From positions 1 through 41,638 of the forward strand of contig DYLS01000037.1 of assembly GCA_020721965.1 (NCBI GenBank): 41,638 bases of DNA, given 5' to 3'. The translations under genes and the position numbers were made by a program. The notes below the pieces were generated by a model. That model was not told the DNA's origin. It saw only the letters and a list, made by a program, of their open reading frames with translations, and made no database searches. This stretch comes from Blastopirellula marina. Lineage in GTDB: Bacteria > Planctomycetota > Planctomycetia > Pirellulales > Thermoguttaceae. Of this stretch, positions 2,164 to 23,897 are shown piece by piece (within the stretch, counting starts at the first letter, position 1; each line of letters opens with the position of its first letter).

Positions 2164-2562
2164 TCAGTCGTCCTCGGGTGGCAAGGCCAGGTAACCGCCA
2201 CGGGAGGGACTTGACCGCCGTCGCGGCGTGGAGCGGCCGTACTTTGCCGCATGTTCAGCCGCCACAACCAAAAGGAAACGATAGGCCACGAGCAATACGG
2301 ACGCCCCCGTGATGGCCGCCACCATACCCAAGGGGCTGATCGGTTGAAACGGCTCAAACTGCCCAACCGCCTTAAGGATAAACGGGCCGATTGTGGCTCC
2401 AAGGACACCAATCAACAGCACCCCCCATGGGCCTTTCGGTTCCTCACCGGGGAAGATGGCGCAGGTGACCAATCCGACCAATATTCCAAAGCCGATCCAA
2501 ATGAGGACCCAATAAATCCAAAATTGGATGGATTCGGGGAATTGAATCTGGAGGAAGACCAT
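2164..2562 (-). CDS. GlsB/YeaQ/YmgE-like small membrane protein
   Basis: The 132-residue protein has three likely membrane segments: a hydrophobic N-terminus (FWIYWVLIWIGFGILVGLV), a glycine-rich second segment (WGVLLIGVLGATIGPFI) and a third near residues 78-100 (GMVAAITGASVLLVAYRFLL). The order GLV...IFPG...GxxxIGVLGATIG resembles the transglycosylase-associated/YeaQ family of small stress-linked inner-membrane proteins. It is longer than the usual 80-90 residues because of the third segment and a basic, polar C-terminal tail. The ATG at 2562 lacks a strong ribosome binding site. It converges with the sulfatase-like gene, leaving an 88-bp gap. The family role is poorly defined, so only membrane location is safe. 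Confidence 0.65.
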   Translation of the reverse strand: MVFLQIQFPESIQFWIYWVLIWIGFGILVGLVTCAIFPGEEPKGPWGVLLIGVLGATIGPFILKAVGQFEPFQPISPLGMVAAITGASVLLVAYRFLLVVAAEHAAKYGRSTPRRRSSPSRGGYLALPPEDD

Positions 2563-2860
2563 GGCGGTCGTTTCGCAGCATACAAAATCGGCGACTTGGG
2601 TGTTGTCTAGCGGTTCCAGCGTCTAACACGGCCTGCCAGAGGAGGGGAATTGCCGGTTGGGTGGGGGGACCGGATTTCCGAGTTCGCGGGGCTGCACTTT
2701 CAATGATCTGCGATTCCCGTGATTTACCTTGAGAAAAGGAATCGGCTACGATGCCTCGCCCGGTCCATCCAAACTCTCAAGAAAAACGCGCGGACGGTCC
2801 GGTCCACCGTGTCCTGACCGTCCGTGCCACGCGATTTTGTGAAGGCCTTCTGCGATCTGG

Positions 2861-3169
2861 CTACTGGGCCTGATTCGGCTGAGCCTGATTCGGCTGGCCT
2901 TGGTTCTGTTGAGCCTGGTTCGGCTGGACCTGATTCTCAGGGGCCTGATTCTCTTGGGCCTGGGCCTCTTTTAGGGCCGCCGCTTCCCGCGCCAGCTTGA
3001 ACTCGGTACCTGGCGCGTAGTATTGAACGTCGTCTTTAAGGTAGTACGGGCTAGGGAGCATCTGGCCCCCTACCTCCACCTGGCAGCCCGTCCCGGCGAA
3101 CAGCGCGCCGAACGCGACCCCTGCCAGCATCCAGATCAGCCCTTTAACGCGGGTCCTCAGGCCGCTCAT
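2861..3169 (-). CDS. Small planctomycete-type lipoprotein with PNQAQ repeat tail
   Basis: This is a 102-residue exported protein. The start is placed at ATG 3169, because AGGAGG at 3176-3181 lies six bases upstream; longer in-frame starts exist but lack this. The signal sequence is basic then hydrophobic (RTRVKGLIWMLAGVAFGALF) and ends in AGTGC, so Cys29 is a probable lipidation site, although the lipobox is not canonical. The mature part carries QMLPSPYYLKDDVQYYAPGTEF followed by KLAREAAALKEA, a conserved pattern I associate with planctomycete lipoproteins of unknown function. The last 35 residues are low-complexity Gln/Asn/Pro repeats of five residues (PNQAQ-like), matching 15-bp repeats in the DNA. 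Function unknown. Confidence 0.75.
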   Translation of the reverse strand: MSGLRTRVKGLIWMLAGVAFGALFAGTGCQVEVGGQMLPSPYYLKDDVQYYAPGTEFKLAREAAALKEAQAQENQAPENQVQPNQAQQNQGQPNQAQPNQAQ

Positions 3170-3559
3170 CGCCAACCTCCTGCTCATCATGTTTTGTATT
3201 GGAATTCTGTACGTCGCGATGTCCCAAACCGTCGGGCGGCACGACGACGCACCAAGCCATGGGAACCCTGCAACCCACAGGATCGTCAAAGTCGTTATCG
3301 TCATTACAGGCCGCGCGACTTTAATTTCATCAATTTCATCGCCCGCCCGTTCGAGACATCGCCCAGCCGTGGGAAATAGTGCCTAGCCGTTGGAAACCCC
3401 GCACTCCCAGACGTAAGATCAAGAGAAGCAGCTCCGACCACTGGCGGACGGCAATCGTTGACGGGTGGGATGGCGCGAAAAAAGAGGTGTTTTCAGAGCC
3501 TTACAGCAAAAACGGTGCTGCTCGTAGCCGCTGACTGCTCGAGGAAACCATAAGATTCT

Positions 3560-3805
3560 GTGGACGACACATCGCGACGCCTCGAATGTTACTTGAACCG
3601 TTACGAGCATAAAGTCGTTTTAGTGAATCCGTCGCTGCATCCGGTCGTTGTGGACCTTGCGGCTCTTGCCCCCGGGGCACGCTTCCGACGGATTCGCGGA
3701 ACGGCCGGACAGGATACGGAAACCAACAATGGACAGCCGGTCGGGCCGACCGTGACACTGCCGCCCTTGGATGCGCTGTTTTTGGAGGAAGCCGTCGATG
3801 GATGA
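3560..3805 (+). pseudogene. Remnant of a glycoside-hydrolase-type C-terminal domain
   Basis: This frame of 81 codons starts at a GTG, with an in-frame TAA just upstream (3551-3553). It contains YEHKVVLVNPSLHPVVVDL, then FRRIRG, NNGQPVG and VTLPPLDALFLEE. This order (own-the-line VNPS, a strand, a dipeptide N-G, then a final LPP-D-LFL strand) resembles the C-terminal beta-sandwich that closes several putative glycoside hydrolases. No catalytic domain is upstream, so it is probably a truncated gene. Its stop overlaps the likely start of the CHAT protein by eight bases, so it may now act as a coupled leader reading frame. It could also be a short real gene. The family assignment is from memory of the pattern. 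Confidence 0.4.
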
Positions 3806-6800
3806 CCACTCGTGGAACGTATGCGTCTCTGACGTTCCCGGTTCAAGCGGCGCGGAGTACCCGCGTCATGCGATTCCAGCTTCGAAGGGAATGCGCATGC
3901 CGCGGCCGACCGTGACCCCAATGGGTTCTTGCCAGGAATACTTCCACCGTAGCGGTATTTTCACCGGGTGGAGACGGTTGCGGGGAACCACCTTCACCAC
4001 GGGTGGCCCGGCGATCTGCTTGCTGTCCCTTGTCCTGTTGTGCGTTGGCCCGGCGCAATGGGCGCTGGCACAATTGGCGGCCGATACCAGAATCCCTCCC
4101 AGGCTGTACTACAGCGGCATCGTGATGTTGCAAGAGGGTCAATTGCGAGATGCCCTGCGAACCTTCGAGAGCTGCTACCGCAGCGCGATTCGGGTGGGGA
4201 CGCAACGCTGGGTCGATTCGATCTGCTATTTGACGATGCAGGGCGAAACATTGTACGCCCTGGGCCGCTTGGATCAGGCGTTGGACAGCTATAACGCGGC
4301 ATTGCAATTATCGCTAGCGTACCCGGATTGGCTGAACTACGTGCAATTCCCGCCACAACTGACGCCCTCCACGCAGGCCGCGTTTCAAAGGATTCCCTGG
4401 CAGGGGCGGACCCGTACCTCGCGATTCGCCAATTATCCCGACGAAATGCTGATATTGCTGGGGAACGTGGAATGGGCCAGGGCCTTTCAGGAAGGCGGCG
4501 TGGCCATGCCCGCCAAATTCAAGCCCATCAACGTCATGGAAATCTTGCGCTGCAATGCCCTGGCGATGCGCCGACGGATGGAACTGCTCGGGCCGTTGAC
4601 CGCCACCGATCCCATGACCAAGGACCTCTTGAACCTGTGGTCGCGCCGGCCGGGGCCGCCCAATCACTGGTCGCAATGCTGGATCGACCTGTTACTGGGT
4701 CTGGCCATGCAGGGCGAGGGGCGACTGGATGAAGCCATTCCCATGCTGACGCGGTCCGCCACCGCGGCAGGGCAGTACGATCATCCGATGACGGCCTATG
4801 CCCTGATCGAATTGGGGCGGCTGGCGCTGAGCCGCGGGGACTTTGCAGCGGCGCGGGGATTTTTCTTCGAGGCCACCTTTCCCGCGGTCGTCTATCCAGA
4901 CGCAGCGGCCTTGGAAGAGGCGTTTCGCTGGGCCGCCCTAGCGAGTTTGCTGGCCGGCACGCAGGCTCCCGATCCGGCCATCACCTCCGCGGTAGCCTGG
5001 GCGAGGGTTAAGCGGCTGCGACATCTTCAAGCCTCTCTGGCACTGTCTGCGGCCGAATTGTTTGCCGCAGGGGGGAATTGGGCGGCGGCCGGACAATCGC
5101 TCGATGAAGCCCAGACCGCCTTCGCGCGGACGGACCTGGCTACGGGGCGTCTGGTCGATCGCTGGAACTTCCTCCGCGCTGTGACGCTGCTGCACGCCGG
5201 AAATCTCAAGGACGGCGAGGCGGCCCTGTCCGCCGCCTTGGCCGGGATGCAGACGCGCTCGCTGTGGCTTTTCCAACTGAGTCGGCTGTCGGAGATTTAT
5301 GCTGCGGGGCGGATCACGATGCGAGGCCCGATCACGCCCAAAACCGCCATGGATTTGTACTGGGTACTCCTCCGCGATCCCAACCGATTGGACTGGGCGG
5401 TGGATCCCTTGGAGTCGCTGACCGTGACGGCCATCCCGCACCCCAAGCTCTTCGAGCAGTGGTTTTTGATCGCCTGGGAAAGGAACGTGATGGACGAGGC
5501 CCTGCTCATCGCGGAAAAGGCCAAACGCCATCGCTTCCAGGCGGCGCTGCCGTTGGGCGGGCGGCTGGATGCCGTGCGGCGCCTGATCGCCGCGCCGGAA
5601 GAGGAGCTTGGCCCCGCCGCACGCGTTGAGCGTACCAATATCCTGGGCAAGTACCCTGCCCTGGCGGCTCTCACCCGTGAATCGCAAGACATGTACCAGC
5701 GGCTCCGCTCGTCGCCATTGCCTCCGTCGGACAATGCGGGATGGCAATCGCTCGGCCAATCCCTCGAACGGTGGGCGGCGGTCGGCGCCCAAACCGAAGC
5801 CGTCCTGCGATCCGTGGCCGTCAGCCGAGATACGGCGGGAGAGCTTTTCCCACCCGTCCTGCCCACGAAAGAGATTCAGCGCCGCTTGCCGCAAGGGACC
5901 GTACTGCTGAGTTTCTTCGCCGTCGGAAACGACCTCTACGGCTTCATGCACACTCAGGATCGTTACGAGGCGTGGCGCATTCGTGGGGGGCTGGCACCCC
6001 TTGTCCGCCAACTTGCCACACTCCTCCAACAACTCGGGCAATACGACGCCAATCGCGAGTTTTCCCTCAAAGAAGCGGCGGACACAACCTGGAAAAATAC
6101 AGCGGAAGCGATCCTCAAGGCCATCAGTAGCGGTTCCAAGGCCGATTTCGCCGCCGACTTCGGCGAGCTGATCATTGTTCCCGACGGGGCCTTATGGTAT
6201 TTGCCCTTCGAGTTGCTACAAGTAAACGTGGACAACCAACGGCTGACGCTGATAGCCAAGCACCCGATCCGCTATAGCCCGACGGCGGGAATCGCGGTGA
6301 CGCCCTCGCCCGGCGCAGGCGTGCAGCCGCGGACGGGCGTCTACTTGGGGCGGCTGTTCCCCCAAGAAGACGCATCGGAGGCCCAAAAACGCTTCGACGG
6401 CTTGGCCCAATCCGTTCCTGGGTGCGTCCCCTTGTCGCCCGCTGGCAACGCCCCTACCGGAGCGATGCTGGCACCGCTCTTCGATCGCCTGGTCGTCCTC
6501 GCGGATTTGGAAAACACGACGGCGCCATTGGGTTGGGCCCCATTGCCGCTGGGTCAGCCATTGGGGAATAGCCTGGCGGATTGGTTGGTCCTGCCGTGGC
6601 CCGCGCCAAGGGTCTTCGTCGCGCCGGGCTTTCACACCGTGGCGGAATCGGCCTTCAAGCGGACCAGCGGTGTTCCCACCGGGCAGGAGATATTTTTGTC
6701 CCTGACAGCGCTCGCTGCATGTGGAACTCGAACCGTGTTGCTCAGCCGATGGCGAACCGGCGGCGAGAGCGCGCTCGCCCTAGTACGCGAGTTTTTGCAG

Positions 6801-7175
6801 GAAGAGAGCGAGAAGGGAGGGGCGGAGGCATATCGTCGGGCCGTCCTCCTGGTGATAAGCTCGCCGCTCGATCCTGCCCAAGAACCGCGCGTGCAAAAGA
6901 AGACCCCTGATCAACCCCTGCACATGGAGAACCCATTCTTTTGGGGGGGCTACCTGTTGGCGGCCCCGGGTGAGATAGCCGAGTCTGGCGGCGAGCCTGC
7001 CGCGGCTCCAGCTCCCGCCGCAGCGCCAGCCCCTGAACCAGAAAAAGCCGCTGAAGCAGAAAAAGCCCCGGAAGCAGAAAAAGCCCCGGAAGCGGAAGAA
7101 GCACCAGAAGCGGAAAAGGCCCCGGAAGGCCAAAATCAACCACCGCCAGCGGGAGAAAAACAGAATCTCAGCTAA
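3798..7175 (+). CDS. TPR-CHAT protein with degenerate CHAT active site
   Basis: The product is about 1125 residues. A hydrophobic export segment near residues 68-90 (LLSLVLLCVGPAQWALA, cleavage after ALA) is followed by TPR-like helices (LYYSGIVMLQEGQLRDAL, ETLYALGRLDQALDSY, ALIELGRLALSRGDFAAA) and, after about residue 690, a CHAT domain: LIIVPDGALWYLPFELL, then LAACGTRTVLLSRWRTGGESA, closing with PFFWGGYLLAAPG. CHAT domains are caspase-like peptidases with a His-Cys dyad. Here the His block (HLATHG) reads VVLADLEN and the Cys block (LSACET) reads VAPGFHT, so both residues appear lost. The tail is Ala/Pro/Glu/Lys with EAEKAP repeats. ATG 3798 has GGAGGAA seven bases upstream; ATG 3897 (after GAAGGGA) is an alternative start. 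Probably an envelope scaffold, not a protease. Confidence 0.8.
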   Translation: MDDHSWNVCVSDVPGSSGAEYPRHAIPASKGMRMPRPTVTPMGSCQEYFHRSGIFTGWRRLRGTTFTTGGPAICLLSLVLLCVGPAQWALAQLAADTRIPPRLYYSGIVMLQEGQLRDALRTFESCYRSAIRVGTQRWVDSICYLTMQGETLYALGRLDQALDSYNAALQLSLAYPDWLNYVQFPPQLTPSTQAAFQRIPWQGRTRTSRFANYPDEMLILLGNVEWARAFQEGGVAMPAKFKPINVMEILRCNALAMRRRMELLGPLTATDPMTKDLLNLWSRRPGPPNHWSQCWIDLLLGLAMQGEGRLDEAIPMLTRSATAAGQYDHPMTAYALIELGRLALSRGDFAAARGFFFEATFPAVVYPDAAALEEAFRWAALASLLAGTQAPDPAITSAVAWARVKRLRHLQASLALSAAELFAAGGNWAAAGQSLDEAQTAFARTDLATGRLVDRWNFLRAVTLLHAGNLKDGEAALSAALAGMQTRSLWLFQLSRLSEIYAAGRITMRGPITPKTAMDLYWVLLRDPNRLDWAVDPLESLTVTAIPHPKLFEQWFLIAWERNVMDEALLIAEKAKRHRFQAALPLGGRLDAVRRLIAAPEEELGPAARVERTNILGKYPALAALTRESQDMYQRLRSSPLPPSDNAGWQSLGQSLERWAAVGAQTEAVLRSVAVSRDTAGELFPPVLPTKEIQRRLPQGTVLLSFFAVGNDLYGFMHTQDRYEAWRIRGGLAPLVRQLATLLQQLGQYDANREFSLKEAADTTWKNTAEAILKAISSGSKADFAADFGELIIVPDGALWYLPFELLQVNVDNQRLTLIAKHPIRYSPTAGIAVTPSPGAGVQPRTGVYLGRLFPQEDASEAQKRFDGLAQSVPGCVPLSPAGNAPTGAMLAPLFDRLVVLADLENTTAPLGWAPLPLGQPLGNSLADWLVLPWPAPRVFVAPGFHTVAESAFKRTSGVPTGQEIFLSLTALAACGTRTVLLSRWRTGGESALALVREFLQEESEKGGAEAYRRAVLLVISSPLDPAQEPRVQKKTPDQPLHMENPFFWGGYLLAAPGEIAESGGEPAAAPAPAAAPAPEPEKAAEAEKAPEAEKAPEAEEAPEAEKAPEGQNQPPPAGEKQNLS

Positions 7176-19164: not shown

Positions 19165-20883
19165 TTATTTGTCATCTTGCCGCCAGAACCAATCCAGCAA
19201 TTGAGCCGGTGCATGGCCGATCTGCTTGAAGAGCTTGCCAAGCCGCGTGGTATTCCGGTAACCGTGCAAATGGCGGCGACGGCGGCGGGGGTCGGCCTCG
19301 CGGAGGGCCTGTTGCAACAGCGGTAAGAGGCCGCCGCGGATGTTCCACTGGCGATCTCTCGCGGTGCAGACGCCGCAGACGCGATTCCGGGGGATTTGGA
19401 GGTCTTCGGCCAATGCCTGAAGGAAGGCGGCGATGGCCTTCTCTTTCGGCCGAACCGGATTGTCCGGATCGTAAGGGGGATCCCATTCCGCGAGCGGTCG
19501 TAGCTGATCGATACCGGTGCCCGCCACGATCACGCCCGGTGCGACCTCTTGAGGGTTTTGGGCAAAATGGCGGAGCATTGCGGCGAGAAATTCACGGTCG
19601 GCCTTGCGGCTGGCGTGCCGGGCGGTACAGACCAGCAACAGGACGTCACAGTCGTTGAGTTCCGACAGCAATCTTTGGAAAGCCGATTCCCCCGCGTCGT
19701 CGCCATAGCCCGGCGTGTCCAGGAGATAGACTTCCGGCTGGTTTTCGGTGCCCAGGCCACCATCGAGCGGATCGGTGGCCGTGGTTTCCACGGTTTCGTC
19801 GATTCGCTCGATTTCTTCAGTTCGCTCAGTTTCGTTGATTCGCTTAGTTTCGCCAGTATGCTTGATTTCGCCGGTTTCGTCGGTCATCCGTAGTCGCTGC
19901 GACGGCACACGATAGGCGTGTATCCCCTCCGTGGCGGCAACCGAATCGACAGACGCCTGGGGGGAGCCTATCAAGGCATTGATACAACTGGACTTGCCAG
20001 CCTTCGTTTGCCCGACGACGAGAACACGGTAAGGCTCCCGGCATGTGCTCAGGTACATCTGGCGAAGCGAATCCGCCTGGTCAGCGGTCTTTCGCCCGAC
20101 AATCGAGGTGAATTGGCTCAGCTCCCTCTCTTCGGCGACGATGCGGCCGGAATACAGTTCGATGGCGTAATGGCCCAGCCGGCGGACTGCGTAGCCTTTC
20201 AGGAGGAGGTTCGTCGTCTGCAACGAGGACTGCGTAACGCGGCCAAGGAGGAAAAACCGCAGCTCGCGGAGTAGCGCGGTGCCGGGCGCAAGCGGAATCG
20301 TAACCAATCGGTAGAGGAACCAGCCCCACTGGGAGGTTTGCCACCACTGGGGAATCCGGATCCAATCGGCAACAGTCAAAACATGCGACCCCGGTACCTT
20401 TTGACTGACAATGTTTCGCAGATCGGCGGTCACGAGTTCCACCAGTTTGAGCACGTCGGGGAGCGGCACTTGTAGCACGGCCTGGCGGCTGTCCGCGTGG
20501 TACACGGCGGCCACTGCCTCCAGCAGATTCAGGAGCAGGGCCTTTGCCGTCTCGGCGGAATCCAAGGGGGTTTCGCCCGTCTCCACTTGGCGGGCGATGC
20601 GCTCCACCGCTTGCCGGGCACGTTCATCCAGTGGCGAACTGCCGTACGGAGATGGGAACGCGAACGCTTTGGGTGAGGCGAGGGACGGCCGGGCCAGGTA
20701 CCGAATCGCGGCCCAGGCCGTGGCCGTCAGCACGATCAAGCCAGCGAAATACTGCCACAGGCAACCGTGCTCCCAAAGCCAAATGCCGCCAAACAAGAGG
20801 AGCAGGAGGTAAGGGATGGCGGACACCGCGAAAATCAAAATCCACAGCCATCGAAGGCGTTTCATGGGCCGAGGGCCTTTCAC
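19165..20883 (-). CDS. Membrane-anchored Era-like GTPase (GTPase A)
   Basis: The 572-residue protein has two N-terminal membrane helices (residues about 10-34 and 42-62), a helical middle region, and a C-terminal GTPase domain. The P-loop reads GQTKAGKSS near 290-298 and the G3 motif DTPGYGD near 388-394. The G4 position reads AGTGIDQ near 454, not NKxD, so guanine specificity is not certain. Between G1 and G3, in the switch I/G2 region, sits an insert of about 36 residues made of six-residue Glu/Thr/Arg/Ile repeats (KRINET, ERTEEI, ERIDET). The GTG start at 20883 overlaps the stop of GTPase B by GTGA; ATG 20865 is an alternative. It forms an operon with GTPase B. The substrate process is unknown; membrane remodelling or signalling would fit the architecture. 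Confidence 0.8.
   Translation of the reverse strand: MKGPRPMKRLRWLWILIFAVSAIPYLLLLLFGGIWLWEHGCLWQYFAGLIVLTATAWAAIRYLARPSLASPKAFAFPSPYGSSPLDERARQAVERIARQVETGETPLDSAETAKALLLNLLEAVAAVYHADSRQAVLQVPLPDVLKLVELVTADLRNIVSQKVPGSHVLTVADWIRIPQWWQTSQWGWFLYRLVTIPLAPGTALLRELRFFLLGRVTQSSLQTTNLLLKGYAVRRLGHYAIELYSGRIVAEERELSQFTSIVGRKTADQADSLRQMYLSTCREPYRVLVVGQTKAGKSSCINALIGSPQASVDSVAATEGIHAYRVPSQRLRMTDETGEIKHTGETKRINETERTEEIERIDETVETTATDPLDGGLGTENQPEVYLLDTPGYGDDAGESAFQRLLSELNDCDVLLLVCTARHASRKADREFLAAMLRHFAQNPQEVAPGVIVAGTGIDQLRPLAEWDPPYDPDNPVRPKEKAIAAFLQALAEDLQIPRNRVCGVCTARDRQWNIRGGLLPLLQQALREADPRRRRRHLHGYRNTTRLGKLFKQIGHAPAQLLDWFWRQDDK
19794..19883 (-). repeat. In-frame 18-bp tandem repeat inside GTPase A
   Basis: Five 18-bp units such as TTTCTTCAGTTCGCTCAG and TTTCGTTGATTCGCTTAG (plus-strand reading) encode the six-residue repeats in the switch I region of GTPase A. 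The period keeps the frame. Confidence 0.85.
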
Positions 20884-22058
20884 GATTTTTCACCACTGAA
20901 GCCTTCCTGAATGCGACGGGTCAGCCACTCGCGGGACTGCCGCAACTCCTCGTGGTAAAGGCGTCGCAAGACCTTGGCATCCGGAAGGACGCCGCGGCGG
21001 AGGTCCCCGTAATAGCGGCACATGGCTATTCCCAACGCGTACGTCGATGCCGCAATAAATCCCCCCGATGCGACGGGACCGACCAAGGGAATCAAGCGTG
21101 TCAATTGCCGGGAGAGGTACCGGATCGTAAAGCGGAACCCCAAGGCAGCCGTGATTTCCCAAAGGCGATTCGAGTCCCAGGGTTGATGGTAGATCTTTGC
21201 CAGACTTCGGGCCATCAGCGCGGGAATGCCCAGCACGGTCGGCAAGTCCGCCAGGGGGAAGGGGATTGCGGCGGCCGTCCCTGCCGCAATCGCGTACCAG
21301 ACCACGATAGGATGAGCCTGCCGGAACGAGGCGTCGGCCAATTCGCGGTAAACGTCGGGCGTACCTACGATCGCCTCCCGAAGCCCCCAGGGAACGGCTT
21401 GTTCGATGGCATCCCAAAGGGCCTCCAAACCGTAAAGCACCGGCTGAAAACCGTCTTCGGGCAGCGTGAAGTCCACTGCCGCGAACCATGTTCTGGGTTC
21501 CGGGAACCACGACCGTTGAAACCGTAGTGCCCTCGCCAAGTCCGCCGGAACCGTTGCGGGAAAGGCGTTGCCGGCGAAAGGGTAAGGCTGAATGTGTCGC
21601 GGCTCTCGCCAAGGATAACCTTCGTGCAGGCAAGTCTGCACGACGACGACGGGGACGCCCGGCCGCGTTTCTCTGAGCCGGCTCACGATACAGCGGACGG
21701 TGTCCTGGCCAGTGTCCAGGGCCTTCATGACCACCATCAAGCAGGTGTAATGGACATTGGATAGCACCGGTTCTGAATTGGCGAAGAGTTCGCCGACCTG
21801 GGCAGCGTCTCCCAAGCCCGGCATGTCCACGAATTGGAGAAAACACTCCTCATCCGTGGGGAAGCGGTAAATTCGCGTGCTTTTCGTGCATGGCCGAAAG
21901 CCCTGGCCGATCTCCTCCCGCGATCTTCCCGTGAGCGCGTGAACGATAGAGGTTTTTCCCGATTGAGTTTTTCCCGCTAGATAAAAGGTGAGGATCGGCA
22001 GACGGCTGCGAAGCTCTCGAAGCCTTCGTTCGTATGGGTTGAGTTCCGAGTCCGACAT
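20880..22058 (-). CDS. GTPase with DUF697/YcjF-like membrane tail (GTPase B)
   Basis: The 392-residue product starts at ATG 22058, placed there by GGAG seven bases upstream; a longer frame to 22100 lacks support. The P-loop GKTQSGKT is at 29-36 and G3 DMPGLGD at 78-84. The G4 region reads VVVVQTCLHEG, so the NKxD motif is missing. The C-terminal half has the DUF697 pattern seen in YcjF and relatives: VVWYAIAAGTAAAIPFPLAD, LPTVLGIPALMARSLAKIY, then PLVGPVASGGFIAASTYALG, two hydrophobic hairpins that probably insert in or lie on the membrane. Its stop overlaps the GTPase A start, so the two are co-translated. The pairing recalls the YcjX-YcjF gene pair of proteobacteria, but domain order differs. 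The cellular role is not known. Confidence 0.8.
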   Translation of the reverse strand: MSDSELNPYERRLRELRSRLPILTFYLAGKTQSGKTSIVHALTGRSREEIGQGFRPCTKSTRIYRFPTDEECFLQFVDMPGLGDAAQVGELFANSEPVLSNVHYTCLMVVMKALDTGQDTVRCIVSRLRETRPGVPVVVVQTCLHEGYPWREPRHIQPYPFAGNAFPATVPADLARALRFQRSWFPEPRTWFAAVDFTLPEDGFQPVLYGLEALWDAIEQAVPWGLREAIVGTPDVYRELADASFRQAHPIVVWYAIAAGTAAAIPFPLADLPTVLGIPALMARSLAKIYHQPWDSNRLWEITAALGFRFTIRYLSRQLTRLIPLVGPVASGGFIAASTYALGIAMCRYYGDLRRGVLPDAKVLRRLYHEELRQSREWLTRRIQEGFSGEKS

Positions 22059-22126
22059 GGCCGACGATCTCCAAGCAAAATTGCCGCTGCACGTTCTCAT
22101 CCGGGGATTCGCCCACCGTGTGCTTG

Positions 22127-22206
22127 GAACGAGGGCAAGTATCTAACGTCTTGTACGAAACGAGGGCAAGTACCTGGCGGGTTCCAAGAAACGGGGGCCA
22201 GTCTCC
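22127..22206. repeat. Three degenerate direct repeats, period about 30 bp
   Basis: GAACGAGGGCAAGTATCT, GAAACGAGGGCAAGTACCT and GAAACGGGGGCCAGTCTCC recur at 30-32 bp spacing, directly upstream of GTPase B. The whole gap 22059-22535 shows no recognisable gene. Confidence 0.6.
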
Positions 22207-23711: not shown

Positions 23712-23897
23712 ACCCGGGACAAAAAGCCCGAGAAAGCTAAACAGGCCGAAAAGGCCAAACAGCCCGAGAGGGCCAAACAGGCCGAAAAGGTCGAATATGC
23801 CGAGAAGGCCCAGCAGGACGATCAAGCGGCTGGACTTGAAACCAACCGTAAAATGGGTCCGTCTGGCTTGAATAAAAGCGACGCGGGGGATGCGTAG
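23712..23897 (+). pseudogene. Former C-terminal tail of ThuA protein, behind an in-frame stop
   Basis: Directly after the ThuA TGA the same frame stays open for 61 codons up to TAG at 23895. Its first part reads KPEKAKQ, AEKAKQ, PERAKQ, AEKVEY, AEKAQQ, a six-residue charged repeat encoded by 18-bp units. Tails of this kind occur on other proteins here. A single base change at the TGA would join it to ThuA. It may be a lost tail or a read-through extension. Confidence 0.55.

Follow-up and report, generated by a model that had tools for sequence, protein, structure and literature searches.

Two adjacent planctomycete genes encode a putative pair of membrane GTPases whose GTP-binding motifs are kept or altered together

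We analyzed a stretch of 41,638 nucleotides from Blastopirellula marina (contig DYLS01000037.1 of assembly GCA_020721965.1, hereafter the window), in which two consecutive genes of the reverse strand, here called B (upstream) and A (downstream), encode GTPases with putative membrane segments. Comparison of their relatives suggests that A and B are a pair, with GTP-binding parts that persist or change in concert, and, as far as sequences can tell, that they belong to one machine. A paired membrane GTPase system had been put forward in the original prediction, made from the letters of the window, and it is supported here by co-occurrence, by gene order and by the linked change of B presence and A motifs. 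In several lineages B is missing, and there A retains its membrane domain but has changed or lost GTPase motifs, suggesting that the switch is separable from the output domain.

The linked change was read from 84 planctomycete A proteins with a readable GTPase region. Vibrio proteins were left out, as were the A proteins cut by contig ends (G021, G085 and G694) and the fused double A proteins of G191 and G277. Motifs were read in 19 of the 44 A-bearing genomes of family f21 and in 30 of the 43 of family f22, the others being counted only, and the order of the window contributed all 39 A matches down to that of G277, plus G001. B was scored as present in G020, where it is unlinked, and in G001, where A and B lie on different short contigs, and as absent in G762, a genome 88% complete with three congeners that possess B. 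Results showed that all three motifs of A, namely the P-loop, the DxxG of G3 and the Asp of G4, were complete in 41 of 43 proteins when the genome had B versus 1 of 41 when it did not. Taken singly, the P-loop was present in 43/43 versus 22/41, G3 in 41/43 versus 2/41 and the G4 Asp in 43/43 versus 23/41. The commonest change without B was a Glu for the G3 Asp (26/41), and some A proteins were left with no motif; as the P-loop and the G4 Asp persist in the fractions just given, the GTPase domain of A without B is altered but not always dead. The exceptions to the linkage are G141 and G144, where B is present and the G3 of A reads ELPA, and G762, where B is absent and the A motifs are complete. 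Within f22, complete motifs were found in 1 of the 30 proteins read, that of G795, the sole f22 genome with B, and in none of the other 29. Therefore, as A motifs are complete almost only alongside B, the most economical explanation is that the GTPase domain of A and that of B are one functional unit. The membrane domain of A outlives B, and its GTPase motifs do not stay unchanged. Regarding the fused proteins, the A profile does not match the P-loop and G3 stretch of the double A proteins of G191 and G277, two genomes of the order, and in genus g139 (L190, L191, L192 and L216) an extra copy of the A N-terminal domain is fused in front, giving frames of 865-911 residues.

On a tree built from nothing but the A N-terminal domain, each of the two traits undergoes seven changes (six and seven without G762), and among independent pairs on supported branches about four of five change in the same direction (4/4 without G762) and none in the opposite one. 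Several points weigh against reading these data as the mark of one machine. The independent pairs are too few for significance, the Fisher value for A motifs against B presence (4e-20) ignores relatedness, and the tree, in which some rows are long, is well supported at 32 of its 83 inner branches; in an earlier tree of 41 rows, where G020 was scored as without linked B, one opposite pair turned up in a few of the random pairings. B is retained in G141 and G144 despite the altered G3 of A, and many A proteins retain the P-loop or the G4 Asp after B is gone. In addition, B distances track the N-terminal part and the GTPase part of A alike (partial correlations 0.61 and 0.58), and the GTPase part was not singled out in this mirror-tree comparison. 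The joint loss would be compatible, too, with two proteins that share a pathway. Moreover, B was called absent in genomes of the order after scoring the best six candidates of each, and the structure models are poor, with a mean predicted local distance difference test (pLDDT) score of 50 for B and 44 for A; built from two-row alignments, they are usable only for the order of secondary structure elements.

We also looked at how far the two genes occur together across genomes, a question on which the original prediction depended. The scan of the order covered 296 genomes, with the best six (B) and four (A) candidates per genome scored, and that of the phylum 392 genomes, with thresholds of 1e-10 and 1e-25 and the best four and three candidates scored. 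Full-length B was found in 11 of 60 relatives examined and in 28 of the 296 genomes of the order; 96 of the 124 matching genomes had only partial matches (the DUF697 or the G part alone in the rows listed). When every candidate of G022, G030 and G033 was scored with the window B, none matched. A lies directly downstream of B on the same strand in 26 of the 28 genomes with full-length B, and the gap to the start of A homology is at most 40 bases in 23 of these 26; as for the other two, G020 carries A and B on separate contigs, and the contig of G065 breaks off within B. Among the best candidates of the 392 phylum genomes, full-length A and B were confined to the class of the window.

The 120 genomes of f21 include 45 with B and 44 with A: 41 have both, 4 have B alone, 3 have A alone and 72 have neither (Fisher p 8e-24, uncorrected for relatedness). 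In the 41 genomes with both, the genes are adjacent in 20, on one contig but 0.4-3.9 Mb apart in 6, and on different contigs in 15, where coordinates leave room for the partner on the contig in 14 cases and G716 could not be judged. As 21 of the 41 genomes thus hold both genes non-adjacent, their co-retention in f21 is not just linkage. The genomes with B alone are G690 (95% complete, with B at a contig edge where A would follow) and three genomes 62, 75 and 82% complete, so that in both B-only genomes at least 90% complete, G690 and G065 of the order, the contig stops where A would follow. Those with A alone are G617, whose A has an altered G domain, G694, whose A is cut by the contig end, and G762. 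In f22 (45 genomes), A is found in 43 and B in one, G795, where the two genes are adjacent and the A motifs intact.

No third gene is common to more than 3 of the 32 loci holding both A and B, although 24 gene clusters recur in 2 or 3 of them, and the gene surroundings point to no consistent function. In seven f22 genomes (for example L164, L167, L179 and L183), A without B stands between small conserved proteins that look, from their sequences, to be of membrane type, and most of these loci also have a response regulator close by. This might point to a part played by the A N-terminal domain in envelope stress, but we do not use it as evidence. In G134, G207, G273 and similar genomes of the order, neighbouring proteins of about 450-550 residues both match the DUF697 part of B, and they are apparently another, different paired DUF697 set.

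Searches for A and B covered planctomycetes, viral contigs and plasmid and phage records, and other bacterial chromosomes were covered by a pattern-based scan with the window B, in which only a Thermogutta contig was found among 84,980 species genomes. Among 72,556 plasmid records, full-length relatives of Vibrio B and Vibrio A occurred in the same five records, all of them Vibrio megaplasmids. In Vibrio sp. THAF190c, A directly follows B with overlapping open frames, and in the other four records the genes lie about 11-12 kb apart on one strand. The three Vibrio A proteins read all have the P-loop, DxxG and the G4 Asp. The same searches returned a Rossellomorea DUF697 GTPase (26% identity over 82% of B), and another 14 records matched only the G part of A. 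A phage element was rejected, with no match in phage records and no relative encoded by any of 59 pattern-matched stretches of viral contigs. For one Vibrio record in which the two genes are separated, ten proteins encoded between them gave no Pfam match. In two Vibrio parahaemolyticus megaplasmids (L224 and L225), A and B flank a block of genes on the opposite strand, of which eight have no Pfam match and one is annotated as RNA 2'-phosphotransferase, and the gene order of the block is the same in the two records shown.

The two proteins differ at G4, where both had been described as lacking a clear NKxD. For A this did not hold. In the window A the TGID comes after the fifth strand. Among A proteins whose genome has B, each of the 43 readable ones retains the Asp, and their motifs read THID, SHID, THVD and similar, with NKxD itself in G519 and G669. 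For B the description stood and went further. In planctomycete B proteins the G4 column, readable in 45 of 46, holds a His in 45/45, with a Thr three residues earlier in 45/45 (TxxH), while the P-loop and G3 are retained in 46/46. This TxxH aligns without gaps with the TQVDE and SQCDE of two distant DUF697 GTPases, and the low-confidence model of B places TCLH at the end of strand 137-143. We conclude from these alignments that B bears a fixed Asp-to-His replacement at G4. The Vibrio B proteins (n = 3) also have no G4 Asp and carry Ser (TFCS) or Leu (TAVL) instead, that is TxxS or TxxL; therefore, the loss of Asp is common to both groups and the His is planctomycete. The fixed His in place of the guanine-reading Asp is, after the linked change itself, a second point that can be tested, in bacteria whose membranes are poorly understood.

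Considering these data together, we give an even chance to the proposal that a single membrane-bound GTPase machine has A and B as its two subunits, whose G domains would pair when nucleotide-bound. A would be anchored through its N-terminal helical hairpin and B attached to the membrane through the hydrophobic helices of DUF697. The two GTPase domains would associate in the nucleotide-bound state, and this association would trigger switching or hydrolysis in the domain of A and probably also in that of B, whose modified G4 may be adapted to pairing with A. The output would be passed to the A N-terminal domain at the membrane, and the process served would most likely be, as a guess, assembly or stress-related remodelling of the cytoplasmic membrane. 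Paired, mutually activating GTPases are known among bacterial dynamins and also among IRGs, septins and the chloroplast import machinery. GTP turnover by the dynamin pair of Campylobacter jejuni needs heterotypic G-domain pairing, and mutating either P-loop leaves negligible turnover (PMC6104087); by this precedent, A-B pairing would run across the nucleotide sites and depend on nucleotide. We infer that the GTPase domains of A and B probably act as one heteromeric membrane unit, like the dynamin pair in principle and unlike it in architecture.

A further-reaching proposal, which we put forward tentatively and hold to be doubtful, is that planctomycetes and Vibrio megaplasmids would carry a new kind of membrane GTPase in which two subunits are obligatory. 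B would have given up the guanine-reading Asp (for an invariant His in planctomycetes), and thus might read another base, read guanine by other residues, or complete the site of its partner. The membrane domain of A would repeatedly persist after the GTPase pair is gone, then being a membrane protein that has no normal nucleotide switch and that, in one lineage, consists of fused double copies.

The main rival to the two-subunit machine is a one-way regulatory role, in which B would be an activator, exchange factor or assembly factor of A, or the reverse, with no symmetric pairing of G domains, and in which the loss of B would free the GTPase domain of A to change or decay. The same co-loss data fit it, the unusual G4 means that B need not be a normal switch, and G141 and G144 show B kept next to an A with altered G3; however, the P-loop and G3 of B, retained in all 46 planctomycete B proteins read, would be needless for a pure scaffold, and we judge this role unlikely, if worth serious attention. 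It would be a still smaller chance, though not a negligible one, that A and B serve the same process without touching and are lost together for that reason. Such an arrangement would suit the non-adjacent genes of 21 of the 41 f21 genomes with both and of 4 of 5 Vibrio records, as well as B distances that track both parts of A about equally. On the contrary, A can stay without B with only its GTPase motifs changing, which argues for a more specific link, and the gap between the genes is short in most adjacent pairs of the order.

Kinship with bacterial dynamins had been suggested for the pair, and it holds in part. The G domain of A scores above the Dynamin_N cutoff, 25 of 25 linked A proteins match this family at E up to 0.001, and genes of dynamin-like proteins (DLPs) are usually paired in operons (PMC6104087). 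Like A and B, bacterial dynamin-like pairs such as Cj-DLP1/2 come from two membrane GTPase genes, often neighbours, and heterotypic G-domain pairing, here the proposed mechanism, would be a further likeness (PMC6104087). The layout differs: dynamins have the G domain first, then neck and trunk bundles with a membrane paddle, whereas in A the anchor and a helical part precede the G domain and 113 residues follow G4. MMR_HSR1 fits A about as well (25/25), and among PDB sequences the A profile matches the GTPases Der and MnmE best. B has a DUF697 tail and no G4 Asp, and Dynamin_N was found in only 1 of 28 B members (E up to 0.001); judged by these matches, B is not a dynamin. A true dynamin pair that tethers or fuses membranes is thus, in our view, quite improbable. 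Least probable of all would be a relative of the double-GTPase (DO-GTPase) conflict systems. Paralogous GTPase pairs do occur in such systems (PMC7159879), and one A relative matches DO-GTPase2. This is, however, one of 25 A relatives, and DO-GTPase2 is absent from the 10 families matched by B relatives; G3 has Asp, not the Glu of the DO-GTPase Walker B, in B and in 41 of 43 A proteins with B. Nor is any further gene common to more than 3 of the 32 loci, as described above (GAP1 profiles, the comparison relevant to DO-GTPases, were not run on the neighbours). DO-GTPase membership was rejected.

Other families were also compared. YcjX-YcjF is a two-gene membrane set of a P-loop protein and a DUF697 protein (YcjF), whereas here both proteins bear GTPase domains. 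The proposed kinship with it was not upheld, as no YcjX family is among the Pfam matches of A or B up to E = 1; DUF697 is, we take it, the only feature that B has in common with YcjF. DUF697 GTPases (YcjF-like proteins, the slr1306 family, and single Rossellomorea and Streptomyces plasmid proteins) share the tail of B and align with it, but the two distant ones mentioned above keep the G4 Asp, and no A was found in their loci. The canonical [TS]xxD of DUF697 GTPases is thus replaced in planctomycete B. Membership of B in the slr1306 family was rejected (model score 17.7, cutoff 490). Among PDB sequences, the B profile has its top matches in IRG (E 1.6e-5) and GBP (about 0.003) GTPases, which work by self-association; unlike B, these are eukaryotic and without DUF697, the matches are weak and mostly limited to the G domain, and E-values similar to those of GBP were obtained for Der, Toc33 and HflX. 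LeoA/LeoBC (PADLOC) was rejected, since only the P-loop region matches (best E 3.2e-8 for B and 1.4e-4 for A), and PspM was set aside as a weak match of one A relative (14.6 bits against a cutoff of 80). Fold searches with the poor models were given no weight: they returned mostly generic GTPase domains, with GBPs at the top for B and TM-scores to the query of at most 0.33 in the 50 rows shown. By the tests made, the A-B pair appears to be a variant of paired membrane GTPases that falls outside three known families (dynamin, YcjX and DO-GTPase). Judged by titles and abstract openings, none of the listed papers on DUF697, YcjX-YcjF, bacterial dynamin-like pairs, double-GTPase conflict systems, Toc34, septin and GIMAP dimerisation, TRAFAC proteins and planctomycete GTPases describes it, and to that extent it is, as had been supposed, not obviously described.

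The features of the two genes are collected in Table 1. Both frames are open and 20-67% identical to relatives, and therefore A and B are coding beyond chance; among named relatives the nearest, with 68% identity for B, is a contig from a metagenome assembly of a Thermogutta sp. Profile searches confirmed the domains that had been read from the letters. B scores 26.4 bits for MMR_HSR1 (cutoff 21.9) and 29.9 bits for DUF697 (PF05128, cutoff 27.7), the latter being matched by 26 of 28 B relatives (E up to 0.001). A, whose own P-loop and DTPGYGD are where they had been placed, scores 49.6 bits for Dynamin_N (cutoff 27) and 47.9 for MMR_HSR1 (cutoff 21.9). It starts with an N-terminal hydrophobic hairpin, continues as a helical stretch to about residue 277, without any Pfam or NCBIfam match up to E = 1, and ends with the GTPase domain. 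Two N-terminal helices had been claimed for A, and the evidence is mixed: hydropathy gives a single strong segment in the window A (residues 7-25), a laxer threshold gives two segments in 72 of 87 A proteins, and the low-confidence model shows helices 2-32 and 36-58. Likewise, the GTGA overlap of the two genes exists in the DNA, while the GTG start of A is unproven because homology to relatives begins only at ATG 20865, 14 bases past the B stop.

Table 1. Features of genes A and B, in window coordinates
Feature	Position	Strand	Basis or remark
Gene B	20880..22058	-	392 residues; GTPase (MMR_HSR1) whose hydrophobic C-terminal half holds DUF697; possible in-frame ATG farther upstream, at 22100
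B P-loop (G1) GKTQSGKTS	21948..21974	-	motif reading
B G3 DMPGLGD	21807..21827	-	motif reading; DTRG in 44/46 B proteins
B G4 position, T-C-L-H replacing NKxD	21624..21635	-	alignment
B DUF697 match, hydrophobic helices	21138..21323	-	Pfam profile and hydropathy
Gene A, putative membrane-anchored GTPase	19165..20883	-	572 residues from GTG 20883 or 566 from ATG 20865
A N-terminal helical hairpin, probable membrane anchor	20692..20862	-	hydropathy and low-confidence model
A N-terminal domain, about 277 residues including the anchor	20035..20865	-	kept in genomes without B
A P-loop (G1) GQTKAGKSS	19987..20013	-	motif reading
A G3 DTPGYGD	19699..19719	-	motif reading
A G4-like TGID, T450-D453 counted from ATG 20865	19507..19518	-	motif reading
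GTGA overlap, B stop and possible GTG start of A	20880..20883	-	DNA reading

Between the P-loop and G3 of the window A lies an acidic stretch of 59 residues that holds an 18-base tandem repeat (3.3 copies, 19793-19852), and most of this stretch is absent from the close relative L046. Just upstream of gene B, positions 22128-22202 hold a 31-base repeat (2.4 copies, 77% matches), and other short tandem arrays with units of 15 to 18 bases, and multiples of these, are found at 2861-2963, 7028-7128 and 23720-23821. The direct neighbours of the pair in the window are presumably housekeeping genes. Two or three genes at 2164-7175, 12-17 kb below A and one of them encoding about 1134 residues, have relatives in G002, a genome of the same genus, where they lie 2 to 7 kb below A (L050, 12792-17194) in the same relative orientation.

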